From a virus, in the IMG/VR virus record IMGVR_UViG_3300030047_000127, positions 1 to 22,789 of that record: a DNA stretch of 22,789 bases; one strand, written 5' to 3'. Under the pieces are notes generated by a model, which saw only the letters and a list, made by a program, of their open reading frames with translations, was not told the DNA's origin and searched no databases. A program made the position numbers and the translations under genes. Of the stretch, positions 1-22,789 are shown piece after piece (positions within the stretch are counted from its first letter, which is position 1; every line of letters starts with the position of its first letter).

Positions 1-2
1 TC

Positions 3-425
3 CATGACAACCCGGCTTCGGCAGAAGCTATGAACGCGGCGAACGAAGACCTCATCATCGAGGCGCAAAACCTCATCGATTCCAACGGCTCGTCTCTCAG
101 GAGTATCGCGCTCATGGCGATGGCGATTATCGAAGATGTGACCATGGACGAGCTCACGGATGACCAGAAGGGGGTCATGCCAAGTTACAAGAACCCGGCG
201 ATGCCATCTATCGTATCACAGGCCGACGCGTGGACGAAGATAGTCAGCGTTGCCCCGGACGATGTGAAATCCGGTATATTCTCGTCTGATATATTCTGGG
301 AGCAGCTTGGCTTCTCAGAAGACCAGCGAGACAGGATCATGAAAGCTATGACCAAAGCATCGGCAACTGCTACTATCAACTCGCTTATGAACGAGGCCAA
401 GGCGGTGAAGAATGGACCGGCCTGA
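3..425 (+). CDS. Phage portal protein, C-terminal part (partial at 5' end)
   Basis: The reading frame is open from the left edge, so this is the tail end of a gene that begins outside the window. The first visible residues, HDNPASAEAM, match the stretch found near the C-terminal helical region of SPP1/HK97-type portals (DNPASAEAI-like). The portal is the dodecameric ring at the capsid vertex through which DNA is packaged and ejected. About 140 residues are visible, mostly helical and acidic. The stop overlaps the start of the MuF-like gene by 14 nt, the usual portal then minor head gene order. The identity rests on the short motif and on position. The catalogued portal core is not visible. 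Confidence 0.75.
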   Translation, partial: HDNPASAEAMNAANEDLIIEAQNLIDSNGSSLRSIALMAMAIIEDVTMDELTDDQKGVMPSYKNPAMPSIVSQADAWTKIVSVAPDDVKSGIFSSDIFWEQLGFSEDQRDRIMKAMTKASATATINSLMNEAKAVKNGPA

Positions 426-13003: not shown

Positions 13004-13342
13004 ATGGAAGTAATCATCAACCAGGTAGCCGCACTCGTCATCGCGGTTGTGCTCCCGTTCGTCATCGCGCTCTTGCAAGGCGAGACGTGGAGCGCCAACG
13101 TCAAGAACTGGATTGCAATCGTCATCTGCGCGCTGACCGGCGCGGCTTACATGGTCACATCCGGCATCGCAATCACGCCGGAGAATATCACAGCCGTCGT
13201 GATGGTATTCGTCGGCGGCACGCAAATCGCATACCGCGCCTTTAAAGGCATTGGAATCACGAGCAAGCTGATGGACGCGCTTACTGCCGTCAAGGTCGTG
13301 GTCGATAAGACCGACGACAAAACCACCGATCAGGCAGCGTAA
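13004..13342 (+). CDS. Holin
   Basis: This 112-residue protein has three predicted membrane segments (about 8-25, 35-53 and 61-77) and a charged C-terminal tail (DKTDDKTTDQAA), the layout of a class I holin. It lies directly upstream of the endolysin gene and follows an AAGGAG site. Holins assemble holes in the cytoplasmic membrane at a set time. No second in-frame start near the N-terminus that would give an antiholin is obvious. Confidence 0.78.
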   Translation: MEVIINQVAALVIAVVLPFVIALLQGETWSANVKNWIAIVICALTGAAYMVTSGIAITPENITAVVMVFVGGTQIAYRAFKGIGITSKLMDALTAVKVVVDKTDDKTTDQAA

Positions 13343-13344
13343 CC

Positions 13345-14625
13345 ATGGGTCACTTCAGGCGCTGCAAATGGCGCTATCTAATCGGAGCATTTCTTGCTGG
13401 CGTCCTCGGGGCGCTTTTTTTTATGCCTTTGTGGATGTGGGGCCAGCCGGGTAATATGCTGGCCCACCGCGACGATTCGGCAAGCATGTCGCAAGACGCG
13501 TCAACGATGTCGCAGGCTGGCATCGACCAATCGGGGACAATCGCCCAGAAGGTCGTGCCTACCGCATCTGCTGATGGCGTTAGCAAAACTGTCATAGACG
13601 TGGGCTACTCGCAAGGTTATTTCGACTGGGATTCTGCCGCAGGACAAATAGACGGGGCCATCCTCGAATGCGGATACGGCAATAACGACAGCGCGCAGGA
13701 CGATTGGACGTTCGCCTACAACGTGCAGCAGTGCGAGCGTCTTGGCATCCCTTACGGCATCTACCTGTACTCGTATGCAAGTAACGATGACATGGCGAAT
13801 AGCGAAGCCGACCATCTTTTGCGCCAGGCATCCACCTGTAATCCGACTCTCGGCGTTGTCATCGACGTCGAACAAGGCGGCTTGGAGTGGTACTACCAGA
13901 GTGCGGCGAGCATCATCTGCCAGCGTGTGCAGGACGCTGGCTACCATGCGATATGGTACAGCGGCGCTTACAACGCAAGCTCGACGGGCCTTGCATCGCT
14001 GCCGTTTGACGGATGGGTTGCCGACTACAACGCGCCGCTCGACTACTCCGGTTCGGTTATCGGATGGCAATACGCTGACGATGGAGTTTGCGGGGTTGAT
14101 ACGTCCTATTGGTACGACTCCACTACAGCGGTCGTAGACCGTCCGCAACCCGCTCCGCAGCCTGCGCCATCCTATAGCAGCGACGTGCGCTACCAGGTTG
14201 CGACGCAATCACGCGGCGTGCTGTCCGAGATGGTGGGGCAGACCGACGCGGGCGGCAGCTCTGATTGGTTCGCGGGAGTCCAGGGCGACCCGATAATCTA
14301 CATCGCCATGCAGATGGACGGTTGGTACCAGGTCGGCACCGAGGACAAACCAGGCGGTCTTCCCGCTGTATCAGCCTACAACATCAATGACACTGCCAAC
14401 GGGTGCGCCGGGGACGGCTCCCCGATCATTTGGGTTCGCTGCTCCTACGACACGCCCGACCCGGCTTCTACGGGCTGGATGTCCGTCTACTATGCGGTCT
14501 CACCGCTCTACAGCGACTTCCTATCAACCATGAAAGATACGACCGACACGGGCGGCAGCAGCGATGATTTCGCTGGGAACTTCAAGCCAATCGACCGTTT
14601 TACCGCATACCTTTCGGCGGCTTAG
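13345..14625 (+). CDS. Endolysin, GH25 lysozyme with N-terminal anchor
   Basis: This 426-residue muramidase starts 2 nt after the holin stop with a weak ribosome site, so coupling is likely. Residues 11-33 are a Gly/Ala-rich hydrophobic segment preceded by basic residues, so a signal peptide or signal-arrest-release anchor. The GH25 domain spans about 80-260. It begins VIDVGYSQG (Asp85), has the catalytic pair in IDVE (Asp174, Glu176) and closes with GWQY and GVDTS. A Pro/Gln-Ala linker (266-276) leads to a C-terminal wall-binding-type region (277-426) containing a repeated motif, DAGGSSDWFAG and DTGGSSDDFAG. It would cleave the glycan strand of peptidoglycan. Classification as SAR type is inference. 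Confidence 0.88.
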   Translation: MGHFRRCKWRYLIGAFLAGVLGALFFMPLWMWGQPGNMLAHRDDSASMSQDASTMSQAGIDQSGTIAQKVVPTASADGVSKTVIDVGYSQGYFDWDSAAGQIDGAILECGYGNNDSAQDDWTFAYNVQQCERLGIPYGIYLYSYASNDDMANSEADHLLRQASTCNPTLGVVIDVEQGGLEWYYQSAASIICQRVQDAGYHAIWYSGAYNASSTGLASLPFDGWVADYNAPLDYSGSVIGWQYADDGVCGVDTSYWYDSTTAVVDRPQPAPQPAPSYSSDVRYQVATQSRGVLSEMVGQTDAGGSSDWFAGVQGDPIIYIAMQMDGWYQVGTEDKPGGLPAVSAYNINDTANGCAGDGSPIIWVRCSYDTPDPASTGWMSVYYAVSPLYSDFLSTMKDTTDTGGSSDDFAGNFKPIDRFTAYLSAA

Positions 14626-14754: not shown

Positions 14755-14809
14755 ACTTACCGTATACTTACCGCATGATTTCAATATTGCCTTGCATTAA
14801 ATCATGCGG
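14755..14809. repeat. Short direct and inverted repeats in the attP arm
   Basis: ACTTACCG occurs at 14755-14762 and 14766-14773, one helical turn (11 bp) apart. The second copy runs into CCGCATGATT (14771-14780), which is inverted perfectly at 14800-14809 (AATCATGCGG). Phased direct repeats and a 10 bp inverted repeat in an attachment region suggest sites for excisionase, integrase arm domain or a host architectural factor. The specific protein is unknown. Confidence 0.5.
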
Positions 14810-14831
14810 TTGGCATAAAGGTATCAAAAGC

Positions 14832-14853
14832 GTGTACTAGATTTGTACTAAAA
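14832..14853 (+). repeat. attP arm repeat, copy 1
   Basis: This 22-nt element (GTGTACTAGATTTGTACTAA plus AA) is repeated exactly at 15074-15095 on the other side of the tRNA fragment. Each copy contains TGTACTA twice at 11 bp spacing. At this copy an inverted TAGTACAC follows at 14857-14864. Identical sites on both sides of the core are the expected form of integrase arm-type binding sites. Confidence 0.7.
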
Positions 14854-14959
14854 ACATAGTACACGATGCTTTGCAATGGTGCATAGTGGTGTATAGATAC
14901 CGCTGCTGAACTGCGAAAATGGTATATAGTGGATGATAGTGTTATACGTTTTTCATACC

Positions 14960-15004
14960 TTCACACGGAAGAGGCCACAGGTTCAAACCCTGTTACGCCC
15001 ACCA
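14960..15004 (+). other. attP core: 3' part of a tRNA-Val(CAC) gene
   Basis: The 45-nt segment reads as a tRNA from the anticodon loop to the CCA end. Loop TTCACAC has anticodon CAC at 14962-14964. It is followed by the 3' anticodon stem GGAAG, variable loop AGGCC, T arm ACAGG-TTCAAAC-CCTGT, acceptor strand TACGCCC, discriminator A and CCA at 15002-15004. No D arm or 5' acceptor precedes it, so it is not a tRNA gene. Tyrosine integrases commonly use such fragments so that integration restores the host tRNA. The integrase gene lies 92 nt away. The amino-acid identity rests on the CAC anticodon and actinobacterial tRNA-Val resemblance. Confidence 0.85.
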
Positions 15005-15011
15005 CTTAAAC

Positions 15012-15050
15012 AGCAGGTCAACCGTTGAATTTAGGTTGACCTGCTTTTTT
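15012..15050 (+). terminator. Strong terminator just after the attP tRNA fragment
   Basis: AGCAGGTCAACC (15012-15023) and GGTTGACCTGCT (15034-15045) form a perfect 12 bp stem with a 10-nt loop, followed by a T-run ending at 15050. It starts 8 nt after the CCA end, so after integration it would terminate the rebuilt host tRNA transcript and shield the converging integrase gene. Confidence 0.88.
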
Positions 15051-15073
15051 GTGTCTATACTTATTATCATCAT

Positions 15074-15095
15074 GTGTACTAGATTTGTACTAAAA
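15074..15095 (+). repeat. attP arm repeat, copy 2
   Basis: An exact 22-nt copy of 14832-14853 in the same orientation, abutting the stop codon of the integrase gene. See copy 1 for its likely role as an integrase arm site. Confidence 0.7.
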
Positions 15096-16274
15096 TCACT
15101 CGTGAGAATCCACGGCGTGCATTTTGGCAGCATCGAGCACGTCCATTGCGGATCCCATCTGCGCGGCGTGGACATGGGTATAGATGCCCAGTGAAGTACG
15201 CTCGCTCGCATGCCCTAGGAGCTTTGCCATGACCTTCGGATGCACATTGGCTTCTGCAAGGTCGGTTGCGAACGTGTGGCGGAATTGATGCAGGTGCCAT
15301 CCATCCATGCCGTAATCAGACGCGTGGCGTCTCCACCAATGGCGGAGCCCGTTCGATTTCAAACCCTCGCCGTGCTGGTCTGCCAATAAAGGCCATGACG
15401 ATACGTCGCCGGTGTTTGCAGCCTGCTTCAACCAAGCCTCGCGGGCATCGAGCGCGGATCGCAAAGTGGAGCTGATGGGCACATCGCGGATGCCAGCCGA
15501 ATCAACGTCGCCCTTCTTCTTCTTCGTGCGCGTCACATGCATGTACGTGCGCGTATCCGCCCATGTCATCGCATCGCCGCAGAATTCGCACTGCCGCAAC
15601 CCTGATTCGCACATGATGATAATCGCCAGCTGGTGAACTTCTTCAGGGTCGAGAGACACGATAAGCTGAACCTCGTCGCCTATTCCAAGCGCCGGCATCT
15701 CCGGCGTGTCCTGCTGAGGTCTCATTGCGTCGATGAATGGGTTGGATATAACCAACCCTGCCTTGCGGGCGTGCTCGAACATACCCCACGCGACCGTGGC
15801 ATAGCACCTGACCGTCGTTCCCGACAACTTGCGCCCCGAAGGGCTATCACCGGACATAAGCGCCGTAAAACAGTTCTCAACGTCTGTCACGGTCACGGCT
15901 TGGAGGTTAAGCGCGCCAAGATGCCGACTGATGGACTTAAGAAACGCCGCGTTCTTGGCATGCGTGGACGCGTCGATCACACCCATAGCCAGTTTCGAAT
16001 CGTTCCAGTGCGCGGCGTATTGAGAAAACGTCCACTGCGTGCGAGCCACGGTTTCGCCGGCATCCATGCTTTCGGCTATTCCGCGCGCCTTGTCGATGGC
16101 GGCGGTGTACGTGCCGTCGAAAACCTCGGTGCTCCACGATATGCCGCCTGCTTTGGTTTTTCCGTTCTCAACGCGGATTTGCCAATGCCGGCATTTCCCT
16201 TTCGGCGTACCCTTCGCAGCTCGTGGGATGGCTCCATAGCGGGTGCCGGACGAGGTTTTCATGATATGATGCAC
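15096..16274 (-). CDS. int: Tyrosine recombinase (phage integrase)
   Basis: This 392-residue protein has all the active-site residues of the family: Arg227 in SGLRQCEF, a Lys in the KKKK beta-turn (251-254), His329 and Arg332 in HQFRH, His355 in LLGHAS and the nucleophile Tyr365 in LGIYTH. An N-terminal arm-binding domain (about 1-65) and a core-binding SAM-like domain (about 80-185) precede the catalytic domain. It catalyses site-specific integration at a tRNA gene and reads towards its own attP. The start is uncertain: GTG 16274, or ATG 16262, with GAGAGGAC upstream of both. The C-terminal DAAKMHAVDSHE ends beside arm repeat copy 2. Confidence 0.93.
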   Translation of the reverse strand: MHHIMKTSSGTRYGAIPRAAKGTPKGKCRHWQIRVENGKTKAGGISWSTEVFDGTYTAAIDKARGIAESMDAGETVARTQWTFSQYAAHWNDSKLAMGVIDASTHAKNAAFLKSISRHLGALNLQAVTVTDVENCFTALMSGDSPSGRKLSGTTVRCYATVAWGMFEHARKAGLVISNPFIDAMRPQQDTPEMPALGIGDEVQLIVSLDPEEVHQLAIIIMCESGLRQCEFCGDAMTWADTRTYMHVTRTKKKKGDVDSAGIRDVPISSTLRSALDAREAWLKQAANTGDVSSWPLLADQHGEGLKSNGLRHWWRRHASDYGMDGWHLHQFRHTFATDLAEANVHPKVMAKLLGHASERTSLGIYTHVHAAQMGSAMDVLDAAKMHAVDSHE

Positions 16275-16350: not shown

Positions 16351-16926
16351 TTACCAGGTTCTTCCGTTGCCGTATCTGTCGTCATACCATTCATAATCGG
16401 CAACGCTTCCAGAGCCGTTTTTGTACTTGTAGAAATTAACCTTGGGAGTCGCAATATCATTCGGTCTGTTTATTGCAAAAGCAGCATCAGAAGTTGCCGT
16501 ATACACCATTACTGACATATTGCTTGAACCTGGATAGTCGCTATTCAGATGGGACAAAGCGTCATCGTATACAGATTGTGCAAGGGTTTGCTTGTCGTTG
16601 TCAGACAGATTAAAGAACGAGTCGTTATCTCCGATTGCATAATCTATATATACGGATTTGTTCTCGGATGTTTCATTCTGCAAAGTAAACGATGGAATCT
16701 TTGTTTCTGCAGGCTTTGTTTCAGTAGTTTCCGTAATTAGTGCCGAAGTTTTATTTTGAGTTGTAGCTTGGGGCTGCTGATTAGACGAATCAGCATCATT
16801 AGTGCTTGTTTGTGTGCTCTTGTTCCCGTTTATTGCCGATATGATTGCCACCAGCAATACAAATGTGACGATAAGCATCAACGCAAGCTTCTTCGGCGTT
16901 AATTTCCCTTTTGCAGACTCCGACAT
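16351..16926 (-). CDS. Membrane-anchored protein, candidate superinfection exclusion factor
   Basis: This 191-residue protein has a basic N-terminus (KGKLTPKK) and one strong membrane segment (about 13-33). A Ser/Thr/Gln/Asn-rich linker follows (about 35-75), then a soluble domain outside the cell. That domain includes SVYIDYAIGDNDSFFNLSDN and ends YEWYDDRYGNGRTW. No enzymatic motif is seen. It starts 14 nt after the repressor stop behind AGGGGAG, so both share one transcript in a lysogen. Base composition is visibly AT-richer than the late genes. Placement and topology fit superinfection exclusion or lysogenic conversion, an inference only. Confidence 0.6.
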   Translation of the reverse strand: MSESAKGKLTPKKLALMLIVTFVLLVAIISAINGNKSTQTSTNDADSSNQQPQATTQNKTSALITETTETKPAETKIPSFTLQNETSENKSVYIDYAIGDNDSFFNLSDNDKQTLAQSVYDDALSHLNSDYPGSSNMSVMVYTATSDAAFAINRPNDIATPKVNFYKYKNGSGSVADYEWYDDRYGNGRTW

Positions 16927-16940
16927 TTTTCTCCCCTTAC

Positions 16941-17291
16941 CTATGCAGTTCTTGAAACTTTATTATCTTCGCTTTGATATTCGCCGGACTTATACATCAC
17001 GTGCGCTTGCTCTGCAAGACGCTCCTGACCCCTTTTATTCATATTTTCATATGACATATTTATCATTTTCTGGTTTTCGTCGCTGTACTTTTCAACATTG
17101 AATTTTCTCCCAGCGAGTTCATCAAGAGAACAGTCTAGGGCATCAGCTATTTTGCATGCACTGTCGAGGCCCATCTTAGCTTCTTCGCGCTCCCATGACT
17201 GGATTGTGCGGATTCTTATGCCCGTTTTTTCTGCCAAGTCCTTTTGCAACATACCAGCTTGTTTGCGAAGGTTTTTAAGCTGCAAAGACAT
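16941..17291 (-). CDS. XRE-family repressor (CI-like)
   Basis: This 116-residue protein has an N-terminal helix-turn-helix of Cro/C1 type (about 5-60). It includes LQKDLAEKTGIRIRTIQSWE (recognition helix about 25-35) and CSLDELAGR. A short helical tail (NMNKRGQERLAEQAHVMYKS) resembles the C-terminus of small XRE repressors. There is no S24/LexA peptidase domain and no ImmA-like peptidase nearby. ATG 17291 is chosen for its GGGAG site; a TTG at 17336 would add 15 residues without support. It is divergent from the Cro-like gene. Confidence 0.8.
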   Translation of the reverse strand: MSLQLKNLRKQAGMLQKDLAEKTGIRIRTIQSWEREEAKMGLDSACKIADALDCSLDELAGRKFNVEKYSDENQKMINMSYENMNKRGQERLAEQAHVMYKSGEYQSEDNKVSRTA

Positions 17292-17326
17292 TATTGCTCC
17301 CAAATCGTATTCGGATAACGCGGCCA

Positions 17327-17355
17327 AGTTTACCAAAAAAGCAAGATAATGTAAA
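17327..17355 (-). promoter_or_regulatory. Candidate repressor promoter (leftward)
   Basis: On the - strand TTTACA (17350-17355) and TAAACT (17327-17332) are separated by 17 nt, with the repressor ATG about 36 nt downstream. The -35 box overlaps an ATGTAA half-site (17349-17354) shared with the operator on the other side, so the repressor could control its own synthesis. Confidence 0.5.
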
Positions 17356-17415: not shown

Positions 17416-17434
17416 TCACGGGGAGGTGATTAAA

Positions 17435-17641
17435 CTGGATGCTTCTTATGGCGGCTCTCTCAACTTGCTTCTCGAACGATCCGGAATGTCTGTTACTGAG
17501 TTCGCAAATCGAATGGGCGTTACTCGTCAGACCGTCTACCACTGGAAAAACTCTTCTTCCATTATGACTTTTGATGCTGCCGAAAAAGCAGCAGACATTC
17601 TCAACTGTTCACTTGATGAACTTGCTGGTCGTATCAACTAG
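17435..17641 (+). CDS. Cro-like XRE regulator
   Basis: This 68-residue protein consists almost wholly of one Cro/C1 helix-turn-helix: LNLLLERSGMSVTEFANRMG, then VTRQTVYHWK as turn and recognition helix, ending NCSLDELAGRIN. The last motif repeats CSLDELAGR of the divergent repressor. The start is unusual. A perfect anti-16S match (GGAGGTGAT, 17422-17430) is followed at 4-nt spacing by CTG 17435, with no ATG in reach. GTG 17426 lies inside the ribosome site and the first in-frame ATG would delete half the domain. Role as the lytic partner of the repressor is inferred from position. Confidence 0.72.
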   Translation: MDASYGGSLNLLLERSGMSVTEFANRMGVTRQTVYHWKNSSSIMTFDAAEKAADILNCSLDELAGRIN

Positions 17642-21545: not shown

Positions 21546-22378
21546 ACGAGATAGCGAAGTATACGCCGCCCGTCATCGAGTGCGACTTCAAGTCGATGCA
21601 GGAGCGGTTGGACAAGGAGCTGGAACCCTACAAGGGATACAGCGAAGAGCAGATCGCCGTTATGGACGAGGAAGCCGTCAAGGTTTCCGCCAAGGCCCTG
21701 CGAGGCATGTTCAAGGACATCGACGAATCGCGCAAGGAGATAAAGCGCAAGTATAACGAGCCCTTGAACCGGTTCGAAGCCGGCGTAAAGGGAATAACCG
21801 AGCAGATAAACGCCACGCTCTCACTGTTCTCCAGCGTCGAGAAGCGCAACGAGGAAGCACGGAAAGAGGAACGCCGCTCAACGCTCGAAGAGGACTGGAA
21901 AGGGGCGGTCGGCGACCTTGCCGAACTGGTGCCGTACTCGGTCATCGAGGACACGAAGTGGCTCAACAAGACCACGACCATGAAGAAGGCCGAGGACGAG
22001 CTCTTCGCCAAGATTACCAAAGTATTGGAGGACAGGCGGACGCTTTCGAGCCTGTGCCTACCGCACGCCGAAGCGTGCGACGCGCTCTATTGCAGGACGC
22101 TCGACCTGCAGAAGGCGATAGACGAGGACAAGCGGCTCACCGAAGCAGAGGCGGAAGCGGCGGCACGCGCTCGCAGGGCCATGGAGATAGACCGACAGGC
22201 GCAGAAGCGCCACGAGTCGGCACCTACTCAGGAAAACCCGCAAACGCCCGTCAGCGAGCCTGTGAAGACATGGGAGCTTAAGTTCAGCGGGACGCACAGC
22301 CATGCGGTACTTATCGCCAAGTACGTCTCGACGGTAGGAGCGCAGGGCATCGGGGCTATCAAGGCGGTGGCCGAATGA
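21542..22378 (+). CDS. DUF1351-type phage protein
   Basis: This 278-residue protein starts at ATG 21542 (4-nt overlap with the preceding stop). It has the order typical of DUF1351: an N-terminal segment, a basic helix (SRKEIKRKYNEPLNRFEAGV), a long coiled coil (RNEEARKEERRSTLEE) and WLNKTTTMKKAEDELFAKI. A second charged helix follows at about 190-225, then a disordered Pro/Gln stretch. A small beta end follows (TWELKFSGTHSHAVLIAKYV). The family usually sits immediately before a recombinase gene, as here, and is thought to support single-strand annealing. The biochemical role is not known. Confidence 0.78.
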   Translation: MNEIAKYTPPVIECDFKSMQERLDKELEPYKGYSEEQIAVMDEEAVKVSAKALRGMFKDIDESRKEIKRKYNEPLNRFEAGVKGITEQINATLSLFSSVEKRNEEARKEERRSTLEEDWKGAVGDLAELVPYSVIEDTKWLNKTTTMKKAEDELFAKITKVLEDRRTLSSLCLPHAEACDALYCRTLDLQKAIDEDKRLTEAEAEAAARARRAMEIDRQAQKRHESAPTQENPQTPVSEPVKTWELKFSGTHSHAVLIAKYVSTVGAQGIGAIKAVAE

Positions 22379-22789
22379 GCGACGAGCGCACCATAGACGA
22401 CCGCTTGGCAGCGGCCCAGGGGAACATAGCCAACCCGAAGATGGACGCTGAAGCCGACATGGGGCGCTTCAAGACCAAGTACGCGACCCTCGCTAACGTC
22501 CTAGACGTGGTAAGGCCCGCATGCAACAAGGAGGGATTGTTCCTCACCCAGCGGCTCATCGAGAAGAAGGACGGGAAGAGCGCGGTAATCACGAAGGTGT
22601 CTTGCGGCGGCAAGTCCGAGACATTGGATATGTTCCCGGTCGACGTGGTGCCTAACATGCAATCTTTCGGTTCGACCATCACATACGCGCGGCGTTACAG
22701 CCTGTTGAATGCTTTCGGCATAGCAGGGGCCGACGACGATGACGGGACAGGCGGAGAGCAGCAGGAAGCGCCCGAATCGGATGCATCGC
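22375..22789 (+). CDS. ERF-family single-strand annealing protein (partial at 3' end)
   Basis: The frame starts at ATG 22375 (ATGA overlap) and runs off the right edge after 138 codons. It has the hallmark ERF region: FKTKYATLANVLDVVRPACN, then MQSFGSTITYARRYSLLNAF and GIAGADDDDG. ERF proteins bind ssDNA and anneal complementary strands, supporting genome circularisation and recombination of phages. The acidic, Gln-rich stretch at the edge is the start of the linker found after the ERF core, so the core is nearly complete. Confidence 0.87.
   Translation, partial: MSDERTIDDRLAAAQGNIANPKMDAEADMGRFKTKYATLANVLDVVRPACNKEGLFLTQRLIEKKDGKSAVITKVSCGGKSETLDMFPVDVVPNMQSFGSTITYARRYSLLNAFGIAGADDDDGTGGEQQEAPESDAS

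Follow-up and report, generated by a model that had tools for sequence, protein, structure and literature searches.

A tRNA-Val(CAC) 3' half as probable core of an undivided attachment site in an uncultivated phage

Between the lysis genes and the integrase gene of a 22,789-nt stretch of viral DNA (hereafter the window) lies a fragment of a tRNA gene. Does this fragment represent the core of a phage attachment site (attP), and if so, what does its undivided state imply for the target of integration and for the form of the assembled DNA?

The tRNA fragment and its neighbouring genes

Positions 14960 to 15004 of the plus strand read TTCACACGGAAGAGGCCACAGGTTCAAACCCTGTTACGCCCACCA and follow the tRNA numbering gap-free from anticodon-loop position 32 to the CCA end, corresponding to the 3' half of a tRNA-Val(CAC) gene. 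The fragment comprises the anticodon loop TTCACAC with CAC at positions 34-36 (14960-14966), the 3' anticodon stem GGAAG (14967-14971), a variable loop of 5 nt (AGGCC), the T-arm ACAGG-TTCAAAC-CCTGT, which is present in the predicted fold of the core, and the acceptor strand TACGCCC with the discriminator A, followed by CCA (15002-15004). Compared to six genuine tRNA-Val(CAC) genes (L126, L127, L095, L096, L103, and L119, called by ARAGORN in other records), 37 to 39 of the 45 positions are equal without gaps. For the 3' half of L119 the best ungapped match in the window was obtained at 14960-15004 (39/45); other window positions reached no more than 25/45, and 30 shuffled windows no more than 27/45. 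The 45-nt fragment from the anticodon loop to CCA that the original prediction had named was thereby recovered with exact coordinates.

No tRNA gene was found by ARAGORN in the window, and the Rfam tRNA model gave a good alignment for the 3' half alone (19.6 bits, below the gathering threshold). Therefore, the fragment represents a 3' half lacking its 5' half. In place of the 5' anticodon stem CTTCC that would be expected in a complete gene, ATACC is observed, and the core does not reach past the CC of this stem. The 5' limit of tRNA identity is thus situated 2 nt beyond the loop, and the stretch formed by this CC and the loop TTCACAC (14958-14966, plus strand) is the likely strand-exchange region. 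This limit fits the expectation that crossover takes place in the anticodon loop, and its exact position is likely near this loop.

A gene encoding a tyrosine integrase of 392 aa (15096-16274, minus strand; PF00589, 1e-21; phrog_1, 1.4e-43) is located convergent to the tRNA fragment, with its stop codon 91 nt from CCA. Relatives of this integrase were not found by peptide patterns in the genome and viral collections. On the other side, the last late gene before attP encodes a GH25 endolysin (13345-14625, plus strand; PF01183, 9.8e-11; phrog_291 endolysin, 3.2e-24), preceded by a holin-like membrane ORF (13004-13342, plus strand), which contains hydrophobic segments and obtained no match in family searches. 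The profile matches to endolysin and integrase confirm that the fragment lies between lysis genes and integrase. Behind the integrase gene, a probable lysogeny repressor of the Cro/C1-type HTH family (16941-17336, minus strand; HTH_3, 1.4e-13; phrog_8, 6.1e-15) is followed by a divergent gene for a small Cro- or Xis-like HTH protein (17426-17641, plus strand), for which weak matches to RstR and excisionase failed to reach the curated cut-offs. A tRNA 3' fragment which reaches from the anticodon loop (14958 or 14960) to its 3' end and adjoins a tyrosine integrase gene corresponds to an A-site attP of the Islander/Williams class. Among tRNA islands identified by Islander, 2083 of 3919 have an anticodon-centred site (PMC4383910).

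Two further ORFs of the neighbourhood were observed. A small membrane-anchored ORF without assigned family is situated between integrase and repressor (16351-16926, minus strand), and a possible lipoprotein ORF takes the same place after the integrase of contig L159 (2200-2769, minus strand).

Arm-type repeats and the undivided state of the locus

Copies of the motif TGTACTA flank the core on both sides. Candidate P-arm integrase sites (14833-14863, plus strand) consist of tandem motifs at 14833 and 14844 and an inverted copy at 14857-14863, whereas the candidate P'-arm sites are given by the identical 21-nt tandem pair TGTACTAGATTTGTACTAAAA (15075-15095, plus strand). The tandem pairs belong to a 25-nt repeat, identical at 24 of 25 positions (14832-14856 and 15074-15098), of which the copies are 242 bp apart and each contain two TGTACTA motifs at a distance of 11 bp. 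All five exact TGTACTA motifs in the 22.8 kb are located at attP (0.8 expected). The 21-nt pair occurs at two places alone in the window, even if three mismatches are allowed, and was found in none of the shuffles (0 expected). Between the flanks of the core the longest exact match amounts to 22 nt, compared to at most 14 nt at the other tested window positions with matched spacing. Arm-type sites repeated to the left and right of the core, as observed here, characterize a bivalent tyrosine-integrase attP of the lambda/L5 type, and the anatomy of the sites is as in mycobacteriophages (PMC3203893, PMC3706429). Judged from the motif pattern, the TGTACTA copies are candidate binding sites of the integrase. 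Upstream of the P arm a 19-nt imperfect inverted repeat (TATACTTACCGCATGATTT / AAATCATGCGGTTGGCATA, 14763-14817) was noticed; it may represent a terminator or the site of a protein.

The arm-site repeats are the best evidence for one undivided attP, and this evidence is additional to that of the original prediction. Since integration would send the two repeat sets to opposite ends, whereas here they occur within 270 bp, both flanks appear to derive from one attP, and it is unlikely that either of them is host DNA. We consider it very probable that a temperate siphovirus-like phage has its complete attP at positions 14833-15095, with the captured 3' half of a host tRNA-Val(CAC) gene as core, undivided in the assembled DNA. 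The integrase would bind to the arm sites of both flanks, and strand exchange between the core and the host tRNA-Val(CAC) gene would occur near the anticodon loop. The tRNA would be rebuilt from the 5' half of the host gene and the 3' half brought by the phage, and would be directly followed by a phage-carried terminator and then by the convergent integrase gene, and the host's own tRNA 3' half would be displaced to the lysis end. The idea that integration reconstitutes a host tRNA-Val is supported by this anatomy. The general principle that the target gene is restored by a tRNA 3' half within attP has been known for decades, and such a half with an integrase alongside is a common, well-known arrangement of low surprise.

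The ends of the contig indicate which part of the genome was assembled. The left end lies within the late operon, in the C-terminus of the portal protein (1-425, plus strand; phrog_104, 4.4e-16), and the right end cuts the gene of an Erf-like annealing protein (22375-22788, plus strand; phrog_2324, 4.6e-30). A fragment identical over 4811 bp (L005) continues the left side with more portal sequence and long upstream ORFs, which by reading appear compatible with a terminase and an HNH protein. It is therefore the far side of the genome that is missing, and the contig crosses the prophage cut point. Fragments of the same phage, related by their capsid region and 91-100% identical, were observed in four further IMG/VR records with different metagenome sample ids (L003-L006); attP is spanned by none of them. 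In case of a more distant relative with 64% capsid identity (L007), a related or Pfam-detectable tyrosine integrase was not found.

Due to the continuity of lysis genes, P arm, core, P' arm, and integrase, the assembled molecule does not represent a single integrated prophage; its physical form would be virion, circular, concatemeric, or tandem DNA. The original prediction had taken the intact attP as evidence of virion, circular, or tandem DNA. Its undivided state, with phage genes on both sides, stood and is strengthened by the arm repeats, while the free form is presumed for a record classed as linear and incomplete, in which neither end repeats nor an end-to-end overlap were found.

An attP-like junction that is locally indistinguishable from attP would also be crossed in a tandem dilysogen, i.e., two same or related prophages at one tRNA-Val gene. 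The lack of an end overlap, by which circularity of the contig could have been recognized, agrees with such an array, and tandem islands do exist (125 tandem cases among the 3919 Islander islands; PMC4383910). They are uncommon, however, and identical arm sites on both sides require one integrase for both flanks and at least the same phage type, so that we regard a dilysogen as very unlikely. Bridging during assembly, by which the lysis and integrase ends of a true prophage were joined through the 47-nt attL/attR repeat, is highly improbable. A core of just 47 nt is indeed beyond the resolution of short k-mers, but assemblers usually break at repeats with two ways in and two ways out, and the same junction in the separate phage records MW202801, LC644972, and LC644973 argues for a natural configuration. 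Hardly credible is tRNA-dependent lysogeny as known in actinophages, in which the overlap of attP and attB is too small to rebuild the tRNA (a core of approximately 10 bp) and the phage brings a tRNA gene of its own (PMC10865867): here, the 45-nt core extends over the entire 3' half with its CCA end, and no tRNA gene is present in the window, though the assembled genome is incomplete. Fortuitous resemblance, or a decayed tRNA without a role in integration, in favour of which nothing can be put forward except the absence of an identified host, is contradicted by a match far above the chance level, by canonical bases at every structural position, and by the location of the fragment next to an integrase gene and between arm repeats.

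Related attachment sites and the probable host

The interpretation as a complete attP with a tRNA-Val target can be compared to an independent contig of 44 kb, IMGVR_UViG_3300021426_000134 (G013, also listed as L141), which was found by the pattern of a tRNA 3' end plus following hairpin, without use of the integrase. In its attP region (21.5-22.8 kb), an integrase 31% identical to that of the window over 369 aa (E 8e-47, 151 bits) was identified, a match better than any among the matches listed in phage or plasmid collections. G013 contains the tRNA-Val(CAC) 3' half from the loop onward, with identity ending 1 nt before TTCACAC, and, as in the window, its CCA is followed by a hairpin with the stem GCAGGTC. 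On either side of the G013 core lies a copy of a 20-nt direct repeat, at a spacing of 239 bp (242 bp in the window), and the G013 gene order amidase, attP, integrase, HTH repressor equals the order lysis, attP, integrase, repressor of the window. In contrast to the window, the orientation of the core relative to the integrase gene is reversed, the terminator is situated on the lysis side, and the arm sequence is different. Due to their opposite core orientations, integration at the core of G013 (L157, 1576-1620) and at 14960-15004 of the window would place the integrase gene at opposite ends. Two homologous integrases adjoining the same tRNA half in otherwise unrelated contigs provide, on comparative grounds, good evidence for the probable target, and the assignment of the locus as attP is thereby corroborated.

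A degenerate pattern retrieved 38 stretches of viral contigs with a tRNA-Val(CAC) 3' half, 34 of them lacking the 5' half; as the pattern demanded the loop, this count cannot gauge the use of other sublocations. Neighbouring ORFs matched PF00589 in 19 of the 31 tested cases, the integrase of the window being the 20th matching member. The integrated form is exemplified by the L095/L091 contig, which served as a control: a complete tRNA-Val is located at one of its ends, and the opposite end has the displaced fragment. Undivided fragments near an annotated integrase gene occur in MW202801.1 and LC644972.1, both circular records, and in LC644973.1, and in case of PP058680.1 the fragment is located among hypothetical genes. 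The circular record MW202801.1 (Podoviridae sp. ctQWt234) resembles the window in its tRNA-Val(CAC) 3' fragment and a convergent integrase gene 96 nt downstream, but differs in a fragment identity of 36/45 and in the lack of the GCAGGTCA hairpin within the first 46 nt past the fragment. A fragment reading as the 3' half of tRNA-Ile(GAT) was noticed in a Streptomyces plasmid (L129, 1994-2038), probably the attachment site of another element.

Almost the same anatomy is given by attP of the mycobacteriophage Cluster J members Omega and BAKA (PMC3706429), which share the tyrosine integrase, the position of attP on the 3' side of int, and the left end of attB in the anticodon loop, and contain a 44-bp common core approximately 100 bp from the int 3' end with paired direct arm sites on both sides. 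They differ in the tRNA-Leu target and the arm consensus TGCATAC, and their integration was proved experimentally (PMC3706429). Similarly, attP of mycobacteriophage Pixie comprises a 47-bp core in a tRNA gene, a left pair of arm sites with one inverted left copy, and a set on the right, but its target is tRNA-Lys, three sites occur on the right, and int is situated on the other side of attP (PMC3203893). Prophages of Eggerthella lenta likewise combine tyrosine integrases with attP sites containing tRNA 3' ends, with tRNA-Leu, -Ser, -Ala, and -Arg instead of -Val as targets (PMC8778435).

The exact 42-mer of the core was present in none of 84,980 species genomes, and exact core searches at 43, 42, and 27 nt gave no match; the host with this exact core is probably not represented among the genomes searched. 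Since the endolysin obtained its best matches in Eggerthella phages (46%) and the capsid protein is 55-60% identical to actinophage capsids, protein similarity suggests an actinobacterial, possibly coriobacterial host. The uncultivated phage is thus placed as temperate, tRNA-Val(CAC) is named as its probable integration target, and a testable attP/integrase pair is made available for a group of hosts in which tools are scarce. The major capsid protein (1811-2917) contains a C-terminal CBM_5_12-like carbohydrate-binding domain (aa 304-335, 2.8e-6).

The hairpin behind the CCA end

Three nucleotides past CCA, folding revealed a stem-loop terminator, probably bidirectional (GCAGGTCAACC ... GGTTGACCTGC TTTTTT; 15008-15049, plus strand; -22.0 kcal/mol), which a terminator scan missed due to its loop limit of 8 nt. 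A BLAST search of the terminator region against phages and plasmids returned nothing significant. A putative terminator is situated between core and arm site of CrimD as well (PMC3203893).

The GCAGGTCA stem was also observed 3' of tRNA fragments in L136 and L141 (both Val), L145 (read as Met, CAT), and L148 (read as Lys, CTT). Contig L136 ends 10 nt past the hairpin. In L145 an integrase-like ORF is located convergent and approximately 100 nt downstream, as in the window, and is not a close relative of the window integrase. Because the GCAGGTCA search pattern was drawn from the window and L136, this recurrence is ascertained and constitutes a lead rather than a result. Tentatively, and with less than even confidence, it may be speculated that tRNA end and terminator form a cassette in the phages of one bacterial lineage, which would differ in integrases and targets (Val, Met, Lys) and share the GCAGGTCA-TGACCTGC hairpin after the captured 3' end. 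This doubtful but possible reading would cover the occurrence of the hairpin in either orientation relative to int, with integration restoring the tRNA together with its transcription stop and shielding it from phage transcription; the hairpin may be a copy of host tRNA terminators, or selection may act on it. It is mildly unusual that tRNA fragments of three types, observed in different phage contigs, have a GCAGGTCA-TGACCTGC hairpin directly on their 3' side, and this recurrence of the terminator stem among several phages is the only less familiar point of the locus.
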